Shown piece by piece: positions 12,856-23,092 of a stretch of DNA of 64,000 nt. This DNA comes from Pedococcus sp. 5OH_020 (GTDB lineage Bacteria > Actinomycetota > Actinomycetes > Actinomycetales > Dermatophilaceae). Numbering within the stretch: the first letter of the stretch is position 1; each line of letters starts with the position of its first letter. The notes under the pieces are model-generated. The model was given only the letters and a program-made list of their open reading frames with translations. It made no database searches and had not been told where the DNA came from. The DNA lies in the NCBI RefSeq assembly GCF_027812955.1, contig NZ_JAPYZV010000010.1:1-64000 (forward strand), in the 5' to 3' direction. A program made the translations under genes and the position numbers.

Positions 12856-14109
12856 ATGGCGTACCGATCGGGTGGACCCCAGGTGCTGGCGATCGTCCTG
12901 GCAGGCGGCGAGGGGAAGCGGCTGATGCCGCTGACGGCCGACCGAGCCAAACCGGCGGTCCCCTTCGGGGGCATCTACCGGCTCATCGACTTCGCGCTCA
13001 GCAACGTCGTGAACTCGGGCTACCTCAAGGTCGTCGTGCTAACCCAGTACAAGTCGCACAGTCTCGACCGGCACGTCACGAAGACGTGGCGCATGTCCAA
13101 CATGCTCGGCAACTACGTCGCGCCGGTCCCCGCGCAGCAGCGCATCGACAAGAACTGGTACCTCGGCTCGGCGAACGCGATCTTCCAGAGCCTGAACCTG
13201 ATCCACGACGAGCAGCCGGACATCGTCGTGGTGGTGGGCGCCGACCACGTCTACCGCATGGACTTCTCCCAGATGGTCACCCAGCACATCGAGACCGCTG
13301 CAGGCGTCACCGTGGCCGCGATCCGCCAGCCCATCTCCCTCGCCGACCAGTTCGGGGTCATCGAGGTGGACGGCTCGGACCACCGCAAGATCGGTGCGTT
13401 CCTGGAGAAGCCGAAGGAGCCCAAGGGACTGCCGGACTCACCGCAGGAGGTGCTGGCCTCCATGGGGAACTACGTCTTCGACTCGGACGTGCTGGTGGAC
13501 GCCGTCACCCAGGACGACGCGCGTCCGGGAAGCAAGCACGACATGGGTGGCGACATCGTGCCCGCGTTCGTCGAGGAAGGTCGCGGCTATGTCTACGACT
13601 TCAAGGACAACATCATTCCCGGGGCCACCGAGCGCGACCAGGCCTACTGGCGCGATGTCGGCACCATGGACTCGTACTGGGATGCGCACATGGACCTCGT
13701 CTCGATCCATCCGGTGTTCAACCTCTACAACTACGAGTGGCCCATCTACACCGACTACGGGCCCTTTGCGCCTGCCAAGCTCGTCCACGGCGCTGCCGGA
13801 AAGTTCGGCGAGGCGCACAACTCCGCCGTCTCCCCTGGCGTGGTCATCTCTGGTGCGACCGTCACCAACTCGGTGTTGTCGCCGAGGTGCCACATCCACA
13901 GCGGCACCACCATCGACGACAGCGTCCTGCTCGACGGCGTCGAGGTCGGACGCGGCTGCACGATCACCAGGGCGATCATCGACAAGGGCGTCCTCGTGCC
14001 GGACGGCGCGGAGATCGGCGTAGACCACGAGCACGACAAGGAGAGAGGGTTCATGGTGACCGAGTCAGGACTGACTGTGGTGGCGAAGTTCCAGAAGGTC
14101 CCGCTATGA
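12856..14109 (+). CDS. glgC: Glucose-1-phosphate adenylyltransferase
   Basis: ADP-glucose pyrophosphorylase, 417 residues, which makes ADP-glucose from ATP and glucose-1-phosphate and is the committed step of bacterial glycogen synthesis. The N-terminal nucleotidyltransferase domain has the loop [20 protein letters not shown] and the [15 protein letters not shown] element; [10 protein letters not shown] contains the sugar-phosphate Lys. A left-handed beta-helix domain begins near residue 300 ([33 protein letters not shown]). The enzyme family is allosterically controlled by glycolytic intermediates. Its stop overlaps the next start (ATGA, 14106-14109). Confidence 0.96.
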
Positions 14110-14924
14110 CGGCAGCAGACCGGCCGGTGCGGGTCGGGGTGCAGCTCCAGCCTCAGCATGCCGAGTACGCGGCGATCCGGCGCGCCTGCGCAGAGGCCGA
14201 GGAGATCGGTGCAGACGTGGTGTTCAACTGGGACCACTTCTACCCGCTCTACGGCCAGCCCGACGGCGCTCACTTCGAGTGCTGGACGATGCTCGGCGCC
14301 TGGGCCGAGGCGACCGAACGCGTGGAGATCGGTGCACTGGTCACCTGCAACAGCTACCGGAACCCGCAGCTGCTCGCCGACATGGCCCGGACGGTCGACC
14401 ACATCAGCGGTGGTCGGCTGATCCTGGGCATCGGCTCCGGCTGGTTCGAGAAGGACTATGACGAGTACGGCTACGAGTTCGGCACGGCCGGTGGACGCCT
14501 GAACGCCCTGGCCCGCGACCTTCCGCTGATCCGGGACAGGTGGACCAGGCTCAACCCACCACCGACCCGCGACATCCCGGTGCTGATCGGCGGTGGTGGG
14601 GAGCGCAAGACCCTTCGGATCGTCGCCGAGCACGCGTCGATCTGGCACGGCTTCGGGGACGCCCAGACCATCGCGCACAAGCATCAGGTCCTCGACGAGT
14701 GGTGCGCCAAGGTCGGCCGCGACCCTGGTGAGATCGAGCGCTCGGCCGGCGTCTCACCGCGGCCAGGTCGGCACCGCGAGGACGTCCCGGACTACGCCAG
14801 CGGCGCCGAGGCACTGTATGAGGTCGGCACGCGCCTGTTCACTGTGGGAATAGGCGGTCCGAAGTACGACCTGGCGCCACTGCGCGAGCTGGTCGACTGG
14901 CGGGACTCCCGCAGGGGCGCCTGA
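14106..14924 (+). CDS. LLM-class, probably F420-dependent oxidoreductase
   Basis: A 272-residue luciferase-like monooxygenase-fold protein. The TIM-barrel pattern is clear: [13 protein letters not shown] at the start, [28 protein letters not shown], the cofactor-phosphate loop [18 protein letters not shown], and [18 protein letters not shown]. In actinobacteria this subfamily generally uses coenzyme F420, less often FMN; the substrate is unknown. Its ATG overlaps the glgC stop, so it is translationally coupled to glycogen synthesis, an association with no obvious biochemical reason. It is followed by a GC-rich hairpin. Confidence 0.85.
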
Positions 14925-14967
14925 GCCGGCCGGCCGGCCCGAGGGCGCCGCCCGATCCGGCCGGCTC
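14923..14967 (+). terminator. GC-rich hairpin after the glgC operon
   Basis: GAGCCGGCCGG (14923-14933) is perfectly complementary to CCGGCCGGCTC (14957-14967), an 11-bp stem around a 23-base loop. It overlaps the stop codon of the oxidoreductase. No U-tract follows, as is common in actinobacteria. Confidence 0.55.
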
Positions 14968-15080
14968 ACCGGCGGGACCGCATGGATGTTCCGCCGGCAG
15001 CACAGCGACTGTTCGAATCTCGAAGAGTGGCACGACAACCGTATGGCGAGACTCAGCACAGCGGCCCCTGAGAGCGTCGA

Positions 15081-15086
15081 TATCGT
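15081..15086 (+). promoter_or_regulatory. -10-like hexamer for serB
   Basis: TATCGT is six bases before the GTG start at 15093. Confidence 0.45.
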
Positions 15087-15092
15087 GGCGTC

Positions 15093-16322
15093 GTGCCCGA
15101 GCCGACCACCGAGGACGCCGAGTCGCTGCTCGTCACGATCAGCGGTGAGGACCGCCCCGGCGTCACCAGCGCGTTCTTCGACGCCATCGCAGACGTGGGC
15201 GCGGAGGTGCTGGACCTGGAGCAGGTCGTGGTCCGCGGACATCTGACGCTGGCCATGCTGCTGACCGGAGGGGCCCAGGACCGGCTGCGCGGCGTGGTCC
15301 AGTCGGTCGCGAAGTCCCTCGACCTCAAGGTCAAGATCAAGAGCGGCACGGGTGACACGAGACGGCGTCGCACAGGCCGGGCAGCGGTCGTCGTCCTCGG
15401 CGCACCCCTGCGCGCCAGCGGAGTCGCCGCCGTGACCGCGCGGATCGCCTCCCACGGCGCCAACATCGACCGGATCCGTCGCCTCTCCCGGTACCCCGTG
15501 ACGACCCTGGAGCTCGACGTCTCGGGCGCCGACGTCGACCTGCTGCGCCGGGAGCTCGCGCTGGAGTCTGCGGTCCACGGCATCGACATCGCCGTTGCCG
15601 CCGGGGGGCTCGCGCGTCGCGGCCGCCGCCTGGTCGTCATGGACGTCGACTCCACCCTCATCCAGGACGAGGTCATCGAGCTGCTCGCCAGCCACGCGGG
15701 ACGGCAGGCCGAGGTCGCCGCGGTGACCGAGGCAGCGATGCGCGGCGAGCTGGACTTCGCGGAGAGCCTGCGGGAGCGGGTGGCGGCGCTGCGGGGTCTA
15801 CCCGTCTCGGTTCTCGACGACGTCCGTGCCGCGGTGCGGTTCACCCCGGGAGCCAGGACGCTGGTGCGGACGCTCAAGCGCCTGGGGTTCACGGTCGCGG
15901 TGGTGTCCGGCGGGTTCATCGAGATCGTCGGGGACCTCGCGCGGGAGCTGGACATCGACCATGCCCATGCCAACAGTCTCGAGGTGCGCGACGGCCTCCT
16001 CACCGGGCGCGTCGTCGGGGACGTCGTGGACCGCGCCGGCAAGGCGCAGGCCCTGAGGCGGTTCGCCGAGGAAGCCGGCCTTCCCCTTTCCCGCACTGTT
16101 GCCATCGGGGACGGCGCGAACGACCTGGACATGCTGGAGGCCGCGGGAATGGGCGTCGCCTTCAACGCCAAGCCGGTGGTCCGCGAGCAGGCGGACACCG
16201 CGGTCACGGTGCCCTACCTCGACGCGGTCCTCTACCTCCTCGGAATCACCCGCGAGGAGATCGAGGAGGCCGACGAGGCTGACGGCACGCCGACCCCCGC
16301 TCCGCCCCTGGCCACCGCGTGA
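15093..16322 (+). CDS. serB: Phosphoserine phosphatase with two ACT domains
   Basis: Catalyses the last step of L-serine synthesis, hydrolysing O-phospho-L-serine. At 409 residues it is the long actinobacterial form: two ACT domains (about 10-85 and 96-165) precede the HAD phosphatase domain. Catalytic motif I is MDVDSTLIQDE, with nucleophile Asp184 and general acid Asp186; motif II is VVSGGF; motif III/IV is Lys in GKAQAL and GDGANDLDML. ACT domains in this family bind serine for feedback control. The start is GTG 15093 with TATCGT six bases upstream. The C-terminus has a short acidic/Pro tail. Confidence 0.96.
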   Translation: MPEPTTEDAESLLVTISGEDRPGVTSAFFDAIADVGAEVLDLEQVVVRGHLTLAMLLTGGAQDRLRGVVQSVAKSLDLKVKIKSGTGDTRRRRTGRAAVVVLGAPLRASGVAAVTARIASHGANIDRIRRLSRYPVTTLELDVSGADVDLLRRELALESAVHGIDIAVAAGGLARRGRRLVVMDVDSTLIQDEVIELLASHAGRQAEVAAVTEAAMRGELDFAESLRERVAALRGLPVSVLDDVRAAVRFTPGARTLVRTLKRLGFTVAVVSGGFIEIVGDLARELDIDHAHANSLEVRDGLLTGRVVGDVVDRAGKAQALRRFAEEAGLPLSRTVAIGDGANDLDMLEAAGMGVAFNAKPVVREQADTAVTVPYLDAVLYLLGITREEIEEADEADGTPTPAPPLATA

Positions 16323-16332: not shown

Positions 16333-16338
16333 GACGTG

Positions 16339-17196
16339 ATGGCAGCAACGAGACGGAGCACGCCCACCCTCTTCATCATCGGTGGAGCGGAGGACCGCGT
16401 CGGCAAGGCGACGGTCCTGCGCCGCTTCGTACGGCTTGCGGGCGGACGCCGGTCCATCATCGTGCTGATTCCCACAGCGTCGTCCTTCCAGGCCCAGGTG
16501 GGTGAGGCCTACACGGACGTCTTCACCAGGCTGGGGGCCCCGGCACCCATCGTCGTGAACCCGCAGAGCCGGACCGACGCCTACTCCCAGGAGTCCGTCG
16601 ACCTGCTGGACGCCGCGACGGGGATCTTCATGAGCGGCGGCAGCCAGCTCAGGCTGAGCCAGCGGTTCCCCGGCACGCCGCTGGGAGACGCCCTGCATCG
16701 CGCTCACGAGCGGGGAGCCGTCATCGCGGGAACCTCGGCCGGCGCCTCCATCATGAGCCGATTCATGATCTCCATGGGCGACGAGGGCATCACGCCCCGC
16801 CAGCGGCACAGCCAGCTCAGTGCCGGGCTGGGCCTGCTCGAAGGGGTCATCATCGACCAGCACTTCGCCCAGCGGTCGCGGTACGGACGGCTGATGTCCA
16901 TGGTCGCCGCCTCCCCCAACCTCATCGGCGTCGGCATCGACGAGGACACCGCGATCGAGGTCCGGGACCGCAGGACGTTCACCGTGCACGGCTCCGGTGC
17001 CGTGTTCGTCCTGGACTGCCGCGCCGCGACGTCGGACGCGCCGGATGCCCGCCGAGGTGCGCCCCTGATGGTCTCCGGTGCAGTGGTGCATTCGCTTCCG
17101 GCAGGCAGTACGTTCGACCTCGCCGAGGTGCGGCTCGTGGAGTTCGTCGAGAAGCACCCGGACGTCACCGTGGCCCTGGCCTCGGCCAAGGCCTGA
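16339..17196 (+). CDS. cphB: Cyanophycinase
   Basis: A 285-residue serine exopeptidase of family S51 that cleaves the storage polymer cyanophycin (multi-L-arginyl-poly-L-aspartate) into beta-Asp-Arg dipeptides. The nucleophilic Ser133 lies in AGTSAGASIMS; other family marks are FIIGGAED, FMSGGSQLRL and GLLEGVIIDQHFAQRSRYGR, which holds the catalytic His region. The length is usual for cytoplasmic forms and there is no signal peptide. It sits 36 bases upstream of cphA in the same direction, giving a make-and-break pair. Confidence 0.95.
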   Translation: MAATRRSTPTLFIIGGAEDRVGKATVLRRFVRLAGGRRSIIVLIPTASSFQAQVGEAYTDVFTRLGAPAPIVVNPQSRTDAYSQESVDLLDAATGIFMSGGSQLRLSQRFPGTPLGDALHRAHERGAVIAGTSAGASIMSRFMISMGDEGITPRQRHSQLSAGLGLLEGVIIDQHFAQRSRYGRLMSMVAASPNLIGVGIDEDTAIEVRDRRTFTVHGSGAVFVLDCRAATSDAPDARRGAPLMVSGAVVHSLPAGSTFDLAEVRLVEFVEKHPDVTVALASAKA

Positions 17197-17232: not shown

Positions 17233-20079
17233 ATGGCTGATCGCCCCACCCCGACGGGACCGCCTGCTCCGGACCTGCGGATCGTCGAGTCACGGGTCTA
17301 CCGCGGTGGGAACATCTGGTCCTACAACCCCGCGATCCACCTCGTGGTCGACCTTGGAGTCCTCGAGGGGTACCCGAGCGACTCCCTGGACGGGTTCACC
17401 GACGCGCTGGTGGACCTGCTGCCCGGTCTGAAGAACCACACCTGCTCGCGAGGGGTCAAGGGCGGCTTCGTCGAACGTCTCCGCGACGGCACCTGGCTGG
17501 GCCATGTTGCGGAGCACGTTGCACTGCAGCTTCAGCAGGAGGCCGGGCACGACCTGCGCCGTGGCAAGACCCGGGCCGTGAAGGGCCACGCCGGCCGGTA
17601 CAACGTCATCTACGACTACACCGACGAGACGGTCGGGCTCGCCGCGGGCGAGCTCGCCGTGCGGCTGGTGAACCATCTGGTCCAGGCCGAAGAGGGCTTC
17701 GACTTCCCCGACGAGCTCGAGGCGTTCTTGCGACGGGCGCAACGGACCGCGTTCGGGCCCTCCACCGCCGCCATCCTCGAGGAGGCGGTGGCCCGGGACA
17801 TCCCCTACATCCGGCTCAACGCCGCGTCGCTGGTGCAGCTCGGCCAAGGCGTCCACGCACAGCGCATCCGGGCCACCATGACATCCAAGACCGGGGCACT
17901 GGCGGTCGACATCGCCAGCGACAAGGACATGACGACACGGTTGCTGGCGTCCGCCGGGCTGCCGGTCCCCAAGCAGGAGACGGTCCGTAGCGCGGAAGGC
18001 GCCGTGGCGGCCGCGCGGCGGATCGGCTTCCCCGTCGTCGTCAAGCCGCTCGACGGCAACCACGGACGTGGTGTCTGCCTGAACCTGCAGTCCGACGACG
18101 AGGTACGTGACGGGTTCGCCACGGCGCAGGAGGAGTCCCGCCGTGGCCCGGTGATCGTCGAGTCCTTCGTCACCGGCCGCGACTACCGCTGCCTCATCGT
18201 CGGCGGACGGATGCAGGCCATCGCCGAGCGGGTGCCGGCCCACGTGGTGGGTGACGGCACCCATACGGTGGCCGAGCTGGTCGACATCACGAACGCCGAC
18301 CCGCGTCGCGGTGTCGGGCACGAGAAGGTGCTGACCCGGATCAGGGTCGACGCGGCGGCCGAGCGGCTCGTCCGCGACCAGGGCCTCACCATGGAGGACG
18401 TGGCGCCCGAGGGGCAGATGGTCAAGCTGGCCCTGACCGGCAACATGTCGACCGGCGGGATCTCCGTGGACCGGACCTTCGACGCGCACCCCGACAACGT
18501 GGAGATCGCCGAGGAGGCGGCCCGCATGATCGGTCTCGACGTCGCGGGCATCGACTTCATCTGCCCCGACATCGCCTCGCCGGTGCGTGAGACGGGCGGC
18601 GCCATCTGTGAGGTCAACGCGGCACCGGGGTTCCGGATGCATACCCATCCGACCGTCGGTGAGCCGCAGTTCATCGCCAAGCCGGTCGTCGACCTGCTCT
18701 TCCCGCCCGGCTCCCCCTCCCGGGTCCCGATCGTCGCGGTGACCGGGACCAACGGCAAGACGACGACGTCGCGGATGATCGCCCACATCTTCAAGGGGAT
18801 CGGCCGCAAGGTCGGCATGACCTCCACCGACGGGATCGTCATCGACGAGCGGCTCGTCTACAAGGCCGACGCCTCAGGGCCCCGCTCGGCCCGGATGGTC
18901 CTGCAGAACCCCAGGGTGGACTTCGCCGTCATGGAGGTGGCGCGTGGCGGGATCCTGCGCGAGGGGCTGGGCTATGACCGCAACGACGTCGCGGTCGTCA
19001 CCAATGTCGCCCCCGACCACCTCGGCATGAAGGGGATCGACACCCTCGAGCAGCTCGCCGACGTCAAGGCTGTCGTCGTGGAGGCGGTGCCCCGCAGCGG
19101 TTTCGCGGTGCTCAACGCCGATGACGCCCTCGTCCGGAGGATGCGGCGCCGCTGTTCCGGCGGGATCGTCTGGTTCTCCTTGCAGCCGCCCGGGACCCCC
19201 GTGCGCGAGTTCATCGAGGAGGCCTGCCGACGAGGGGGCCGGGCCGTGGTGCTCGAGCCGACGGACCGCGGCGACATGATCGTCATCAAGCACGGCAGGC
19301 GGTCCATGCAGCTGGCGTGGACCCACCTGCTGCCGTCCACGTTCGGAGGCACTGCGAAGTTCAACGTGGCGAACGCCATGGCGGCGGCCGGTGCGGCCTT
19401 CGCGGCGGGCGCGGGACTGCACGAGATCCGTCAGGGACTGCGGACCTTCACGACCTCGTACTACCTGTCGCCGGGACGGATGAACCTCGTCAACGTCCAC
19501 AACGTCGACGTCTTCGTCGACTACTGCCACAACGCGCCCGGTATGCGGGTGCTCGGCGAGTTCGTGGACGGGTATGCCGCCCAGAAGACGGGGCAGAGCG
19601 ACCTCGGGAAGGTCTCGCGCATCGGCATGGTGTCCACGGCCGGTGACCGCCGTGACGACGACATGCGTGAGCTCGGGGCAATCGCGGCGCACCACTTCGA
19701 CGTGGTCGTCGTCCGCGAGGACCAGCGGCTGCGCGGTCGACCGGCCGGCCAGACCGCTGCCCTCATCGCCGAAGGCGCCAAGGGTGAGATCGGAAAGGAG
19801 GGCGTGCGGTGCCGGCAGGTGGAGACCGTCCTGAACGAGGTGGAGGCGGTCCGACACTGCATGGCGAGGGCCAACCCTGGGGACGTCGTGGTGCTCTGCG
19901 TCGACCAGCACGCGGAGGTGCTGGCGGAGCTGGAGCAGCTCACCCACTCGGCGCAGGCCGGCGCGCACAACCCAGAGGGCACCGGAGATCCCGACCTCGA
20001 CCCGGCGGAGCTGCAGTCCGAGGCCCAGCAGTCCGGTGACGAGGCGGCCGTTCCCGAGAGCGACTCGGCCACCGTCTGA
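17233..20079 (+). CDS. cphA: Cyanophycin synthetase
   Basis: Non-ribosomal synthetase of cyanophycin, adding Asp to the backbone and Arg to its side chains at ATP cost. At 948 residues it has the full three-part architecture: N domain (1 to ~165), ATP-grasp (G) domain for Asp addition (about 210-480, VVVKPLDGNHGRGV and GGAICEVNAAPGF), and Mur-ligase-like (M) domain for Arg addition (from ~490, with P-loop VAVTGTNGKTTTSRM and Lys509). The ~50-residue C-terminal extension after LEQLTHSAQ is acidic and low complexity. The ATG is preceded by TAGGAG with 5-base spacing. Downstream lies a convergent CphA-related gene. Confidence 0.95.
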   Translation: MADRPTPTGPPAPDLRIVESRVYRGGNIWSYNPAIHLVVDLGVLEGYPSDSLDGFTDALVDLLPGLKNHTCSRGVKGGFVERLRDGTWLGHVAEHVALQLQQEAGHDLRRGKTRAVKGHAGRYNVIYDYTDETVGLAAGELAVRLVNHLVQAEEGFDFPDELEAFLRRAQRTAFGPSTAAILEEAVARDIPYIRLNAASLVQLGQGVHAQRIRATMTSKTGALAVDIASDKDMTTRLLASAGLPVPKQETVRSAEGAVAAARRIGFPVVVKPLDGNHGRGVCLNLQSDDEVRDGFATAQEESRRGPVIVESFVTGRDYRCLIVGGRMQAIAERVPAHVVGDGTHTVAELVDITNADPRRGVGHEKVLTRIRVDAAAERLVRDQGLTMEDVAPEGQMVKLALTGNMSTGGISVDRTFDAHPDNVEIAEEAARMIGLDVAGIDFICPDIASPVRETGGAICEVNAAPGFRMHTHPTVGEPQFIAKPVVDLLFPPGSPSRVPIVAVTGTNGKTTTSRMIAHIFKGIGRKVGMTSTDGIVIDERLVYKADASGPRSARMVLQNPRVDFAVMEVARGGILREGLGYDRNDVAVVTNVAPDHLGMKGIDTLEQLADVKAVVVEAVPRSGFAVLNADDALVRRMRRRCSGGIVWFSLQPPGTPVREFIEEACRRGGRAVVLEPTDRGDMIVIKHGRRSMQLAWTHLLPSTFGGTAKFNVANAMAAAGAAFAAGAGLHEIRQGLRTFTTSYYLSPGRMNLVNVHNVDVFVDYCHNAPGMRVLGEFVDGYAAQKTGQSDLGKVSRIGMVSTAGDRRDDDMRELGAIAAHHFDVVVVREDQRLRGRPAGQTAALIAEGAKGEIGKEGVRCRQVETVLNEVEAVRHCMARANPGDVVVLCVDQHAEVLAELEQLTHSAQAGAHNPEGTGDPDLDPAELQSEAQQSGDEAAVPESDSATV

Positions 20080-20102
20080 CCGACCAGAGCCGGTCCCGGA
20101 CG

Positions 20103-22289
20103 TCAGCGGGGACGCAGCTCCTCGGCATACGCGTGCAGGGCCCGCTGGTAGCTCAGGGTGTCCTCGTCGCCGGCGTGGTGGAGCAGCGTGTCGACGAGGT
20201 CGGCCACGGCCTGGTCGGCGCGGCCGATGTCGACCGCAGCCAGCGCGCGGAACGCCGCCACGGCCGCGCTGCCCGGGCGCTCGCCGCTCAGCTCGGTGAG
20301 GAGCTCGTAGGCGGCCTCCGGCTGACCGGTGACCCGCAGGCTGGAGGCGAGCTGGATCCTCGCGCGGTGCCGGTGCGGCTCGCGCAGCCCTGTCGCCAAG
20401 CACTCCCGGTAGAGCGGGATCGCGTCATGCTCCTTGCCGGCGGCGTCGAGCGCGCAGGCCAGCTCGTACATCAGGCGACCGTCCGACGGATGCCGCCGGT
20501 GCAGCGCCGCGGCAGCCTCTACGCGGGCCTGGTCCTCGCCGAGCTGCCAGACCTCGGCAATGGCGGCCTCGAGCTCGTGCTCCCCGCGTGAGGCGACGAC
20601 CTTGCGCCGGATGTCCTGCGGCCCGTCGGCGGTCGCCCCCTGCGACTCCAGCCACTCGATGACCTGCGCCCTCTCGGCGTGGCACATCAACGCGACGACA
20701 TCGCCGTCGGCGGCTCCCGGGACGAGGGCCTGCAGCCCCGCGAGCTCGGTGCCGTAGGACTCGATGTCCGAGACGCCCGCGCGCGCGAGCCCTGCCCGCA
20801 GATGCTGCTCGAGATCCTGCATCGTCCGTCCGCGCAGGTAGTGAGCCTTGTGGGCGGCCACCACGCGGTCGGCGCGCAGGCCCGCGAGCTCGCCCATGGC
20901 CTCGAGGAGGTCGTCCGTGCGGTCACCGGCCAGCCCCAGACCGAGGTGCACCTGCCCGCCGGATGCCGTCAGGCCGCGGGCGACGTCGAGCAGCGCCTCG
21001 AGGCCGGCCTCGTTGTGGGCCAGGTCCACGATCACCGTGATGCTGCCGCCGTCCGGGCGGGGCAGCGTGTACGTGTTCATCCGTCCCGGGTTGAGCCGGC
21101 CGTCCGGCACGAAGGTGCGCAGGCCCTTCACCACCGCGTCCCGGGGCAGCCCCACCCCGAGTGCCGCGGCCGTGGCGGCGAGGGCGTTGGCCATGTTGTG
21201 CTGCGAGAGCCCCGCCATGGTGGCGGGCACGTCGAGGATGCTCACCAGGCGGTCCGGGTCCTGACCGTTCTGGAGCACGGTGAGGTGCCCGTCCAGGATC
21301 GTGAGGGCCCTGCCCCCGAGGTCCAAGGACTCCCGCACCGCAGGCGAGTCGGCGCGCAGCGTGAACACCCAAGGACGCGCCTTGATGCCCGCCCTCATGG
21401 CCCAGACGCGGGGGTCGTCCCCGTTGAGCACCACCCAGCCGGTCGGGCGCGTCGCCTTCGTCACGATCGCCTTCACCTCGGCGAGCTGGTCGACCGTGTC
21501 GATGCCCTGCATGCCGAGATGGTCGGCCGACACATTCGTCACCACGCTGACGTCGTTGGACGAGACGCCCATCCCCTTGAGCAGCATGCCACCCCGGGCC
21601 GTCTCCAGGATGCCCAGCTGGACCCCCGGCGAGGTCAGCACGCCGCGCGCGCCCGCGGGACCGGAGTAGTCCCCCGGCTCCACCATCTCGCCCTGCACGA
21701 CGATCCCGTCGGTCGACGACCAGGCGGTGCGCAGCCCGGCCGTCATCCCGATATGGCCCAGCAGGCGGGTCGTGGTCGTCTTGCCGTTCGTCCCCGTCAC
21801 CGAGACGACCGGGATGGTGGGGCGCAGGACGGAAGGGCGGTCTCCCGGCTCCGCCTGGCTGACAGCCCTGGCCTGCTGCTCGACGACGTCACGTCCCTGC
21901 AGCCACGCCTCGAGGACGGGTGCGACGGAGGCACCCAGCGCGTGGGCACGTCCCCGCCTGCGCCACACGAACGCGACGACGACCTCTTCCGGTAGGCCCC
22001 CCGGCCGGGTCCGGACCCCCAGCCGGGTGGTGCCGCTCGCCGTCGCCACGCGGCGTACTGCTCGTTCGACGACACGCATGACGAACCGCTGACGCTGCTC
22101 CGTCCCTGGGGCGCCCGGGCGCGCGCCTCGCATCCCGATCCGCCGGGCAAGCTCGGACAGCGACGCCTCGCGTGCTGCCAGGTAGCCCGGCAGCTCCAGG
22201 CTCACCTTGGTGGCGGGCTTGCCGAAGTAGAGGTTGGGACCCTCCAGGAGCCGCATCTCGGTCACGGCGACAGCGGTCTCCGACGTCAT
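20103..22289 (-). CDS. CphA-like N region + Mur ligase + TPR fusion protein
   Basis: A 728-residue protein convergent with cphA. Residues ~10-150 resemble the CphA N domain (MRLLEGPNLYFGKPATKVSL). A Mur-ligase domain follows directly, with P-loop VVSVTGTNGKTTTTRLL (GTNGKTT at 166-172), TSPGVQLGILETARGGML, NVSADHLGMQGIDTV and the C-terminal RLNPGRMNTY and LAHNEAGLEALLDVARG. The ATP-grasp domain of CphA is absent. The last ~158 residues (571-728) are helical TPR-type repeats (ALHRRHPSDGRLMYELACAL; HRARIQLASSLRVTGQPEAA), resembling TPR_5-type actinobacterial proteins. No frameshift is evident. It probably acts in cyanophycin or related amide-ligation chemistry; the actual reaction is unknown. 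ATG 22289 has TAGGCT six bases upstream. Confidence 0.85.
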   Translation of the reverse strand: MTSETAVAVTEMRLLEGPNLYFGKPATKVSLELPGYLAAREASLSELARRIGMRGARPGAPGTEQRQRFVMRVVERAVRRVATASGTTRLGVRTRPGGLPEEVVVAFVWRRRGRAHALGASVAPVLEAWLQGRDVVEQQARAVSQAEPGDRPSVLRPTIPVVSVTGTNGKTTTTRLLGHIGMTAGLRTAWSSTDGIVVQGEMVEPGDYSGPAGARGVLTSPGVQLGILETARGGMLLKGMGVSSNDVSVVTNVSADHLGMQGIDTVDQLAEVKAIVTKATRPTGWVVLNGDDPRVWAMRAGIKARPWVFTLRADSPAVRESLDLGGRALTILDGHLTVLQNGQDPDRLVSILDVPATMAGLSQHNMANALAATAAALGVGLPRDAVVKGLRTFVPDGRLNPGRMNTYTLPRPDGGSITVIVDLAHNEAGLEALLDVARGLTASGGQVHLGLGLAGDRTDDLLEAMGELAGLRADRVVAAHKAHYLRGRTMQDLEQHLRAGLARAGVSDIESYGTELAGLQALVPGAADGDVVALMCHAERAQVIEWLESQGATADGPQDIRRKVVASRGEHELEAAIAEVWQLGEDQARVEAAAALHRRHPSDGRLMYELACALDAAGKEHDAIPLYRECLATGLREPHRHRARIQLASSLRVTGQPEAAYELLTELSGERPGSAAVAAFRALAAVDIGRADQAVADLVDTLLHHAGDEDTLSYQRALHAYAEELRPR

Positions 22290-22295
22290 GCCGGG

Positions 22296-22301
22296 AGCCT
22301 A
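22296..22301 (-). promoter_or_regulatory. -10-like hexamer for the Mur ligase-TPR gene
   Basis: TAGGCT on the minus strand is six bases before the ATG at 22289, giving this gene its own promoter downstream of fabI. Confidence 0.45.
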
Positions 22302-22333
22302 ACGGCGGCAGGGGGCAGAACCGAGACGGTGCC

Positions 22334-23092
22334 CTACTGGCCCATCGCGTGGACGCCACCGTCGACGTGCACGATCTCGGCCGTCGTGGCGGGGAACCAG
22401 TCGGACAGCAGCGCCACACAGGCCTGGGCAGCGGGAAGCGCGTTGTTGACGTCCCATCCCAGGGGCGCCCGCTGCCCCCAGGTGTCCTCGAAGGTCTGGA
22501 ACCCCGGGATCGACTTCGCGGCCGTGGTCCGGATGGGGCCGGCCGCGACGAGGTTGCACCGGATCCCCTTGGGCCCGAAGTCACGTGCGAGGTACCGGTT
22601 CGTCGACTCGAACGCCGCCTTGGCGACCCCCATCCAGTCGTACACCGGCCAGGCGTACTTGGCGTCGAAGGTCAGCCCGACGATGCTGCCGCCGCCCTGC
22701 ATCAGGGGCAGGGCGGCGACCCCGAGAGCCTTGAGGGAGTAGGCGGAGGCGTGCATCGCCGTTGACACGTCCTCGAACGTGCCCTCCAGGAAGTTGAACG
22801 CCCCCTGCGGCGCGAAGCCGATCGAGTGCAGCACCCCGTCGAGGTGGTCCACGTGCTCGCCGACCCGCTCTGCCAACGAGTCGAGGTGGCCCTGGTCGGT
22901 GACGTCGAGCTCTACCACCGGTGGAGTGGTGGGCAGGCGCTTGGCGATGGTCTGCGTGATCCGCATGGTGCGTCCGAAGGACGTCAGCACCACCTCGGCG
23001 CCCTGCTCCTGTGCCAGCTTGGCCACGTGGAAGGCGATCGAGGAGTCCATCAGGACTCCGGTGACGAGCAGCTTCTTGCCCTCGAGGAGCAT
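22334..23092 (-). CDS. fabI: Enoyl-ACP reductase (InhA/FabI type)
   Basis: NADH-dependent enoyl-[acyl-carrier-protein] reductase, which completes each cycle of type II fatty-acid synthesis. The 252 residues match FabI/InhA. The cofactor region reads LLVTGVLMDSSIAFHVA, the form seen in InhA. The catalytic YxxMxxxK motif is Tyr151, Met154 and Lys158 in VYDWMGVAKAAFES. Family C-terminal elements PIRTTAAKSIPGF and EIVHVDGGVHAMGQ are present. It lies 40 bases downstream of fabG, the mabA-inhA order of mycobacteria. Confidence 0.96.
   Translation of the reverse strand: MLLEGKKLLVTGVLMDSSIAFHVAKLAQEQGAEVVLTSFGRTMRITQTIAKRLPTTPPVVELDVTDQGHLDSLAERVGEHVDHLDGVLHSIGFAPQGAFNFLEGTFEDVSTAMHASAYSLKALGVAALPLMQGGGSIVGLTFDAKYAWPVYDWMGVAKAAFESTNRYLARDFGPKGIRCNLVAAGPIRTTAAKSIPGFQTFEDTWGQRAPLGWDVNNALPAAQACVALLSDWFPATTAEIVHVDGGVHAMGQ

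Follow-up and report, generated by a model that had tools for sequence, protein, structure and literature searches.

In Pedococcus sp. 5OH_020 (Actinomycetota), the first 64,000 nucleotides of contig NZ_JAPYZV010000010.1, hereafter the window, carry a complete cyanophycin synthetase gene, cphA, and, facing it, a gene for a protein in which a CphA-type N domain is joined directly to a Mur ligase (M) domain and followed by a tetratricopeptide repeat (TPR) tail. Cyanophycin is a nitrogen-storage polymer made by cyanophycin synthetase. We propose that this protein, called here the N-M ligase, is an accessory ATP-dependent amide ligase of the Mur type that works beside complete CphA and decorates or caps cyanophycin, likely with an amino acid other than arginine; we give this reading, in which catalysis, polymer binding and the non-arginine substrate are what we infer, slightly better than an even chance. 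The protein keeps the catalytic residues of the M domain, lacks the hydrolase motif of the N domain and has a rewritten recognition loop, and its gene occurs almost exclusively together with cphA, in convergent linkage. By its defining features it is neither CphA1 nor CphA2.

The gene is a single 728-codon open reading frame (ORF) with an ATG start in the ORF list of the window. Its nearest named relatives, from Phycicoccus sp. Root101 and Pedococcus cremeus, make a host within Dermatophilaceae probable. A Pfam search assigned Mur_ligase_M to residues 164-376, Mur_ligase_C to 403-535 and TPR_5 to 606-725, and at E<=1 it gave no match to ATP-grasp families, in agreement with the preliminary description of this DNA, nor any match of residues 1-157 to PF18921, the family of the N domain. 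The N domain was invisible to Pfam also in four further N-M ligases scanned (L031, L156, L158, L094); it took structure and profiles to reveal it. The cyanophycin synthetase model TIGR02068 scored 340 bits (cut-off 850) and covered residues 158-547 alone, while the window cphA matches the whole of this model.

That the N region is of CphA type, as first described from the sequence, is confirmed concordantly by profile comparison, by the full-length model and by a model of the N region alone. The profile of 82 actinobacterial N regions matched that of 71 CphA N domains over 136 columns (hhalign probability 84.5%, E 7e-6), and as a control the same profile reached a probability of 0.3% against the CphA ATP-grasp region. 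When residues 1-158 were modelled in isolation with AlphaFold (predicted local distance difference test, pLDDT, 94.8), the 15 best PDB matches were all CphA1 or CphA2 (probability 0.96-1.00, E 6e-5 to 0.05, template modelling (TM) score 0.51-0.63, identity 12-17%), the sixteenth being unrelated (probability 0.15). For the full-length model (pLDDT 92.3, predicted TM score 0.85), the first nine Foldseek matches are CphA1 (best E 7e-32), and MurE is found at E 1e-17. The alignment of this model with each of four SuCphA1 chains spans 881-885 columns (Foldseek query TM score 0.59-0.64), so that N and M are roughly in the CphA arrangement. The most conserved stretch of the N region is RxLxGPNLYF, in which R13, L15, G17, N19, L20, Y21 and F22 are invariant in 47 sequences. 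Aligned by eye, it resembles the loop RGPNYWS of CphA; according to the accessible part of PMC9262961, in SuCphA1 this loop lies against the M domain, with Y14 and I17 facing that domain. The hydrolase motif Cx19HxxEH is present in 66/71 CphA rows and in all 63 actinobacterial CphA rows examined; among 87 N-M rows, HxxEH appears within the first 170 residues of a single one, a Legionella protein considered below. The N regions of the actinobacterial ligases are basic (mean charge +7.3), those of the alphaproteobacterial-type ligases acidic (-14 to -19).

The M domain, whose intact state and P-loop had been noted from the start, carries all eight residues expected of an active site. SuCphA1 K499, T500, T522, E558, R731 and H748 hold ATP and Mg, and D585-H586 is the catalytic pair, as given in the accessible parts of PMC9262961 and PMC9427784; their equivalents are kept in 82/82 actinobacterial and 4/4 alphaproteobacterial-type ligase rows. 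Among 73 CphA rows, K499, E558, D585, H586, R731 and H748 are invariant, and Ser replaces T500 in 4% and T522 in 1%. CphA thus keeps its own M residues, and the ligase is therefore no replacement for a broken part.

The recognition loop has been rewritten. The segment H480-R488 aligns on the DNPR motif of two MurE sequences, one from the window genome itself and one from G023. In MurE, this motif recognises the incoming diamino acid. The column of SuCphA1 D801 is Asp in 99% of the 73 CphA rows, but Lys (84%) or Ala (15%) in the actinobacterial ligases and Asn or Leu in four ligases of the Shinella/Ruegeria type. The residue before it is His in the window ligase and Glu in SuCphA1, and the Tyr preceding LRGR is invariant in the ligases. 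Elsewhere, two thirds of the actinobacterial ligase rows have Arg or Lys at the position of E607, and S542 has become Gly. The M domain is 38-41% identical to the M domains of the neighbouring actinobacterial CphA. From these residues, it looks active but retuned.

The N-M ligase is a CphA relative that we suppose to act in cyanophycin metabolism. Since it has no ATP-grasp domain, it should be unable to extend the Asp backbone. The N domain, packed on the M domain approximately as in CphA, would be expected to hold the polymer. The M domain would be expected to activate a side-chain carboxylate by phosphorylation, either on cyanophycin or on a short piece of it, and then to join an amine-bearing partner to the activated carboxylate. 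As CphA adds Arg with an M domain of its own that appears intact, and as D801 is mostly replaced by Lys, this partner is likely not Arg; the likeliest would be another amino acid, attached as a second side chain or as an end cap.

The distribution of the gene shows that the N-M ligase is a partner of CphA, tied to cyanophycin. It was followed in a survey of 296 genomes of the class (threshold E<=1e-60) and in one of 396 genomes of the phylum; G000, G017, G034 and G050 are common to both, and their ligase-free genomes may overlap further. In the class survey, CphA scored above the cut-off in 30 genomes and the ligase was present in 24, all of them among these 30, with both genes on one contig in 22/24, convergent and within 9 kb in all 22, and on separate contigs in G065 and G160. 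None of the 266 CphA-less genomes has the ligase. The suggestion of a dedicated cyanophycin accessory ligase is plausible, and the contrary pattern raised with it, a fusion as frequent without cphA as with it, did not appear in the main form of that comparison. In the phylum survey, CphA was found in 23 genomes (22 above the cut-off and the split gene of G478), the ligase in 22 and both in 21, with the ligase alone in G565 (67% complete) and CphA alone in G488 and G527 (87 and 89% complete); all 15 one-contig pairs are convergent, and six genomes have the genes on separate contigs. The corresponding P values, 5e-30 and 1e-26, ignore shared descent and are indicative only.

A set of named genomes, the best 80 of at least 534 stretches encoding a relative, gave the same picture. 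CphA lies downstream of the ligase in 73/80 loci and is convergent in all 73, with a median gap of 259 bp (47 under 500 bp), and cphB is usually near the ligase as well as cphA. For 12 of the 80, ten of which had appeared CphA-less in a first screen, whole genomes were searched: 11 contain evidence of CphA, above the cut-off in 7 and split or partial in 4, and this search gave none in the metagenome-assembled genome (MAG) G348. A fecal contig filed as 'Bacteriophage sp.' (L036, MT838013.1) also encodes an N-M ligase of the actinobacterial type (66% identity), together with fragments of CphA in convergent orientation; it is probably bacterial DNA mislabelled as phage.

Relatives exist outside the phylum. 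Four plasmids, from Shinella, 'Roseateles' XES5 and two Ruegeria, carry a cphB-cphA-ligase operon in one direction, with ligases of 578-601 residues annotated 'Mur ligase family protein'. The ligase of L034 (NZ_CP084754.1, 'Roseateles sp. XES5') shares 94% identity with that of Shinella, and the L034 record bears the mark UNVERIFIED_ORG; its organism name is probably mistaken. When the actinobacterial ligases were left out of the tree, the M domains of this type fell outside all 20 CphA rows (support 100/100). Their N profile matched the actinobacterial N profile at 68.8% over 54 columns and, pooled with the actinobacterial regions, the CphA N profile at 93%; the N assignment, which comes mainly from a shared GPNLY-like start, is accordingly weak. 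A stretch LxLGHG in the Shinella-type ligase resembles a trace of the CphA G-domain entry (E 0.14), suggestive only of a remnant. As a separate observation, the absence of the hydrolase motif from the CphA of these operons points to a possible link between primer dependence of CphA and presence of the ligase.

Two other proteins probably reached a similar architecture from elsewhere. Legionella adelaidensis plasmid NZ_LR134428.1 (L117:4848-6716) encodes a CphA that has no ATP-grasp and whose N domain retains an intact HxxEH, and Deinococcus deserti plasmid 3 (L033:4044-6218) a CphA-like protein in which N and M domains are present and a short remnant stands where ATP-grasp would be. The D. deserti stretch contains no cyanophycinase or other cphA, and cphA is found on the two other listed plasmids of the strain. 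Both proteins branch inside CphA lineages, and a single origin of all ATP-grasp-less forms was rejected by the approximately unbiased (AU) test for Legionella (p 0.0002) and D. deserti (p 0.008), a test weakened by the fact that these groups were named after the tree had been seen. The architecture without ATP-grasp thus probably has more than one origin. In Deinococcus sp. KNUC1210, a plasmid (L032:3684-6183) has a second CphA-like gene, annotated as two overlapping ORFs and apparently split, which adjoins cphA, isoaspartyl peptidase and cyanophycinase genes.

Several points weigh against the proposal of a decorating or capping ligase. The proposed function is read from sequence, predicted structure and gene context. 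The accessible literature yielded no structural basis for Arg recognition in CphA, so the loop argument stands on the MurE alignment and on general knowledge of MurE; within this loop, the Glu preceding D801 varies in CphA (P, F or R in some), leaving D801 alone as firm. The two genes are unlinked in G341, where they lie 3.0 Mb apart in the coordinates of one contig, and in G345, where they are on different contigs. The ligase is missing from 6/30 CphA genomes of the class survey (G067, G086, G100, G173, G303, G319) and from 2/23 of the phylum survey, hence CphA can do without it. Outside the phylum, the M domains of the Shinella/Ruegeria type group with the actinobacterial ones at a support of 90/53, which is not firm and carries a long-branch warning, and the profile of their four N regions alone did not match CphA N in hhalign (probability 0.4%). 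With Asn or Leu in place of Lys and acidic N regions, it is doubtful that they share a substrate with the actinobacterial ligases. Among the ligase-less genomes of the class, CphA identity to that of the window is 46% in G303, 41% in G173 and 70% in G086 and G067; G067, G086 and G100, which belong to one family of the class, each have two full-length CphA genes.

Could the N-M ligase add arginine after all? An auxiliary arginine ligase for proofreading or repair would place Arg on Asp residues that CphA had left bare or that damage or partial breakdown had exposed. Such a role would agree with the kept M catalytic residues and RGR arginines, with the conserved N-M packing and with the nearly constant company of CphA. 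We nevertheless judge it unlikely, since Lys mostly takes the place of CphA D801 in the recognition loop, the M domain of CphA itself seems intact and the charge of the N region differs strongly.

That the ligase builds short starter peptides for CphA appears improbable. In its favor, the CphA of the Shinella/Ruegeria-type operons (L031, L034, L035, L119) lacks the primer-making Cx19HxxEH site in 4/4 cases, while the CphA of Mesorhizobium (L120), Sphingobium (L122) and Deinococcus ficus, with no such ligase adjacent, keep it. However, the 63 actinobacterial CphA rows examined all keep this motif and these CphA should therefore make their own primers, the Chryseobacterium CphA (L121) lacks it and yet no ligase lies beside it, and a peptide backbone is not expected from a ligase without ATP-grasp. 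We find it slightly less probable still that the enzyme belongs to breakdown or recycling, religating or conjugating beta-Asp-Arg or longer fragments released by cyanophycinase. The usual proximity of cphB would fit, as would the independently evolved Legionella N-M gene, which adjoins genes for cyanophycinase and isoaspartyl peptidase on a plasmid with no full CphA; but that protein is of different origin and keeps the hydrolase motif, and its lack of CphA concerns the plasmid only. Least probable of all is a catalytically idle scaffold or regulator of CphA, to which the TPR tail of one clade might be suited, as an idle protein would not need the eight ATP-binding and catalytic residues that are invariant in 86/86 rows.

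The TPR tail is a borrowed module, a local add-on. It alone matches PF12688 (TPR_5), with 90.4 bits for a gathering cut-off of 24.2, and it is present in 46/80 named loci (L037-L081, L089). The preliminary description had seen in it a part for docking on CphA or granules; this is not borne out, as the tail is missing in 34/80 named loci, mostly Nocardioides and Kribbella, in all 12 ligase-bearing loci read from other families and even in G050, a member of the window's own family. Moreover, a tail match occurs in 59 of the 296 class genomes, on the ligase in 7 and in other open frames in 52, of which 51 have no N-M ligase. The tail is thus clade-specific and was discarded as a key feature; any role of it in the cyanophycin system would be a weak supposition. 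Its occurrence in 46 loci also shows that the window gene is not a fusion created by a sequencing error, frameshift or assembly.

Compared with CphA1 (SuCphA1, PDB 7lg5 and 7lgq), its best sequence and Foldseek match, the N-M ligase shares the N fold and GPN loop, the M fold and the intact Mur active site (K499, T500, T522, E558, D585, H586). It differs by the absence of the ATP-grasp (G) domain for Asp addition and of the N-domain Cx19HxxEH, a site of most but not all CphA1, by its rewritten recognition loop, and by its TIGR02068 score, which lies far from the more than 850 bits of full-length CphA1 and covers model positions 478-858. CphA2 (PDB 7ta5, 8fxi) is likewise a CphA relative with one active site lost, and the N domains match structurally. 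As described in the accessible part of PMC9427784, CphA2 keeps ATP-grasp, its M P-loop and Mlid being gone. The N-M ligase has undergone the opposite loss, as had been recognized at the outset together with the convergence with cphA next to cphB, and identity with CphA2 is ruled out. MurE shares the Mur ligase core, whereas the N domain of our protein matches CphA and not MurE, DNPR is replaced and TIGR01085 scores 77 bits against a cut-off of 257. An ordinary peptidoglycan Mur ligase is also ruled out: the nearest relative is CphA and the gene lies beside cphA, while four other Mur ligases of the genome are clustered on contig C31. TPR_5 proteins, such as PDB 3k9i, found by sequence, resemble the tail, but in 52 of the 59 tail-matching class genomes TPR_5 sits in other open frames.

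Features of the window that bear on the N-M ligase
Feature	Position	Strand	Basis
N-M ligase gene (CphA-type N domain, Mur ligase M domain, TPR tail), 728 aa	20103..22289	-	ORF list; Pfam; AlphaFold; Foldseek
N domain (residues 1-157), CphA-type, without Cx19HxxEH hydrolase motif	21819..22289	-	hhalign; N-only model; motif count
Residues 13-22, RLLEGPNLYF, similar to CphA loop RGPNYWS (aligned by eye)	22224..22253	-	conservation in 47 sequences
Mur ligase M domain (residues 158-547)	20649..21818	-	TIGR02068 positions 478-858; trees
P-loop GTNGKTT (residues 166-172)	21774..21794	-	K170/T171 match Su K499/T500
Catalytic Asp256-His257 (SuCphA1 D585-H586)	21519..21524	-	alignment of 86 rows
Rewritten loop H480-K-A-H-Y-L-R-G-R488, in place of MurE DNPR and CphA E-D...RGR	20826..20852	-	alignments
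TPR tail (residues 571-728), clade-specific	20106..20579	-	PF12688 E 1e-25; distribution counts
cphA, full-length cyanophycin synthetase 1 with Cx19HxxEH	17233..20079	+	TIGR02068 1152 bits; motif count
cphB, cyanophycinase	16336..17196	+	TIGR02069 239 bits
fabI, upstream of the N-M ligase gene (44-bp gap), outside the system	22334..23092	-	NF005908 426 bits

The ligase gene and cphA meet tail to tail, 23 bases apart, and a scan of 19900-22500 for promoters and terminators found none. A FabI-like ORF lies on the ligase strand in 76/80 named loci. Upstream of cphB-cphA, window positions 12856-16322 hold glgC and serB with a gene for an F420-dependent oxidoreductase between them; in the named loci, serB, and in some also glgC, recurs beyond cphB.

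The family may have been glimpsed before. In Tetrasphaera, a 2023 study describes the MAGs TET1 and TET2 as having two cphA copies 'in series', the shorter one less expressed (accessible part of PMC10687191). The record titled isolate TET1 (L049; G709) contains one full CphA next to one N-M ligase, so the shorter, expressed copy of TET1 is probably the N-M ligase gene; in its accessible part, that report regards it as another cphA lying 'in series' and offers no domain analysis, whereas the genes seen here are convergent. A survey of cyanophycin gene clusters gives cyanophycinase and isoaspartyl dipeptidases as partners and, in its accessible part, names no Mur-type one (PMC10206079). The open-access literature, as far as its texts were available, yielded no description of an ATP-grasp-less CphA partner, subscription papers lying outside this search.

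Cyanophycin has been described as the product of a single enzyme, CphA1 (accessible part of PMC9427784). The presence of the N-M ligase in most sampled CphA-bearing actinobacteria suggests that the polymer there is made or finished by two enzymes. We advance more tentatively, and at clearly less than even chances, that actinobacterial cyanophycin is not plain Asp-Arg and that this second, CphA-derived ligase adds a third kind of residue, as a side chain or an end cap. If so, the two-enzyme system would have been overlooked, its second member having been recorded as a 'Mur ligase' or taken for a short copy of cphA. The architecture mirrors that of CphA2, the other active site having been lost, and since ATP-grasp-less forms probably arose more than once, as in Legionella and D. 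deserti, the N-M ligase that stands alone may be a solution reached repeatedly. The family travels with CphA through Actinomycetota, including bacteria of the Tetrasphaera type that live in wastewater plants; should side chains or chain ends indeed be altered, the polymer of these bacteria would differ from textbook cyanophycin, which would bear on nitrogen recovery and polymer production.

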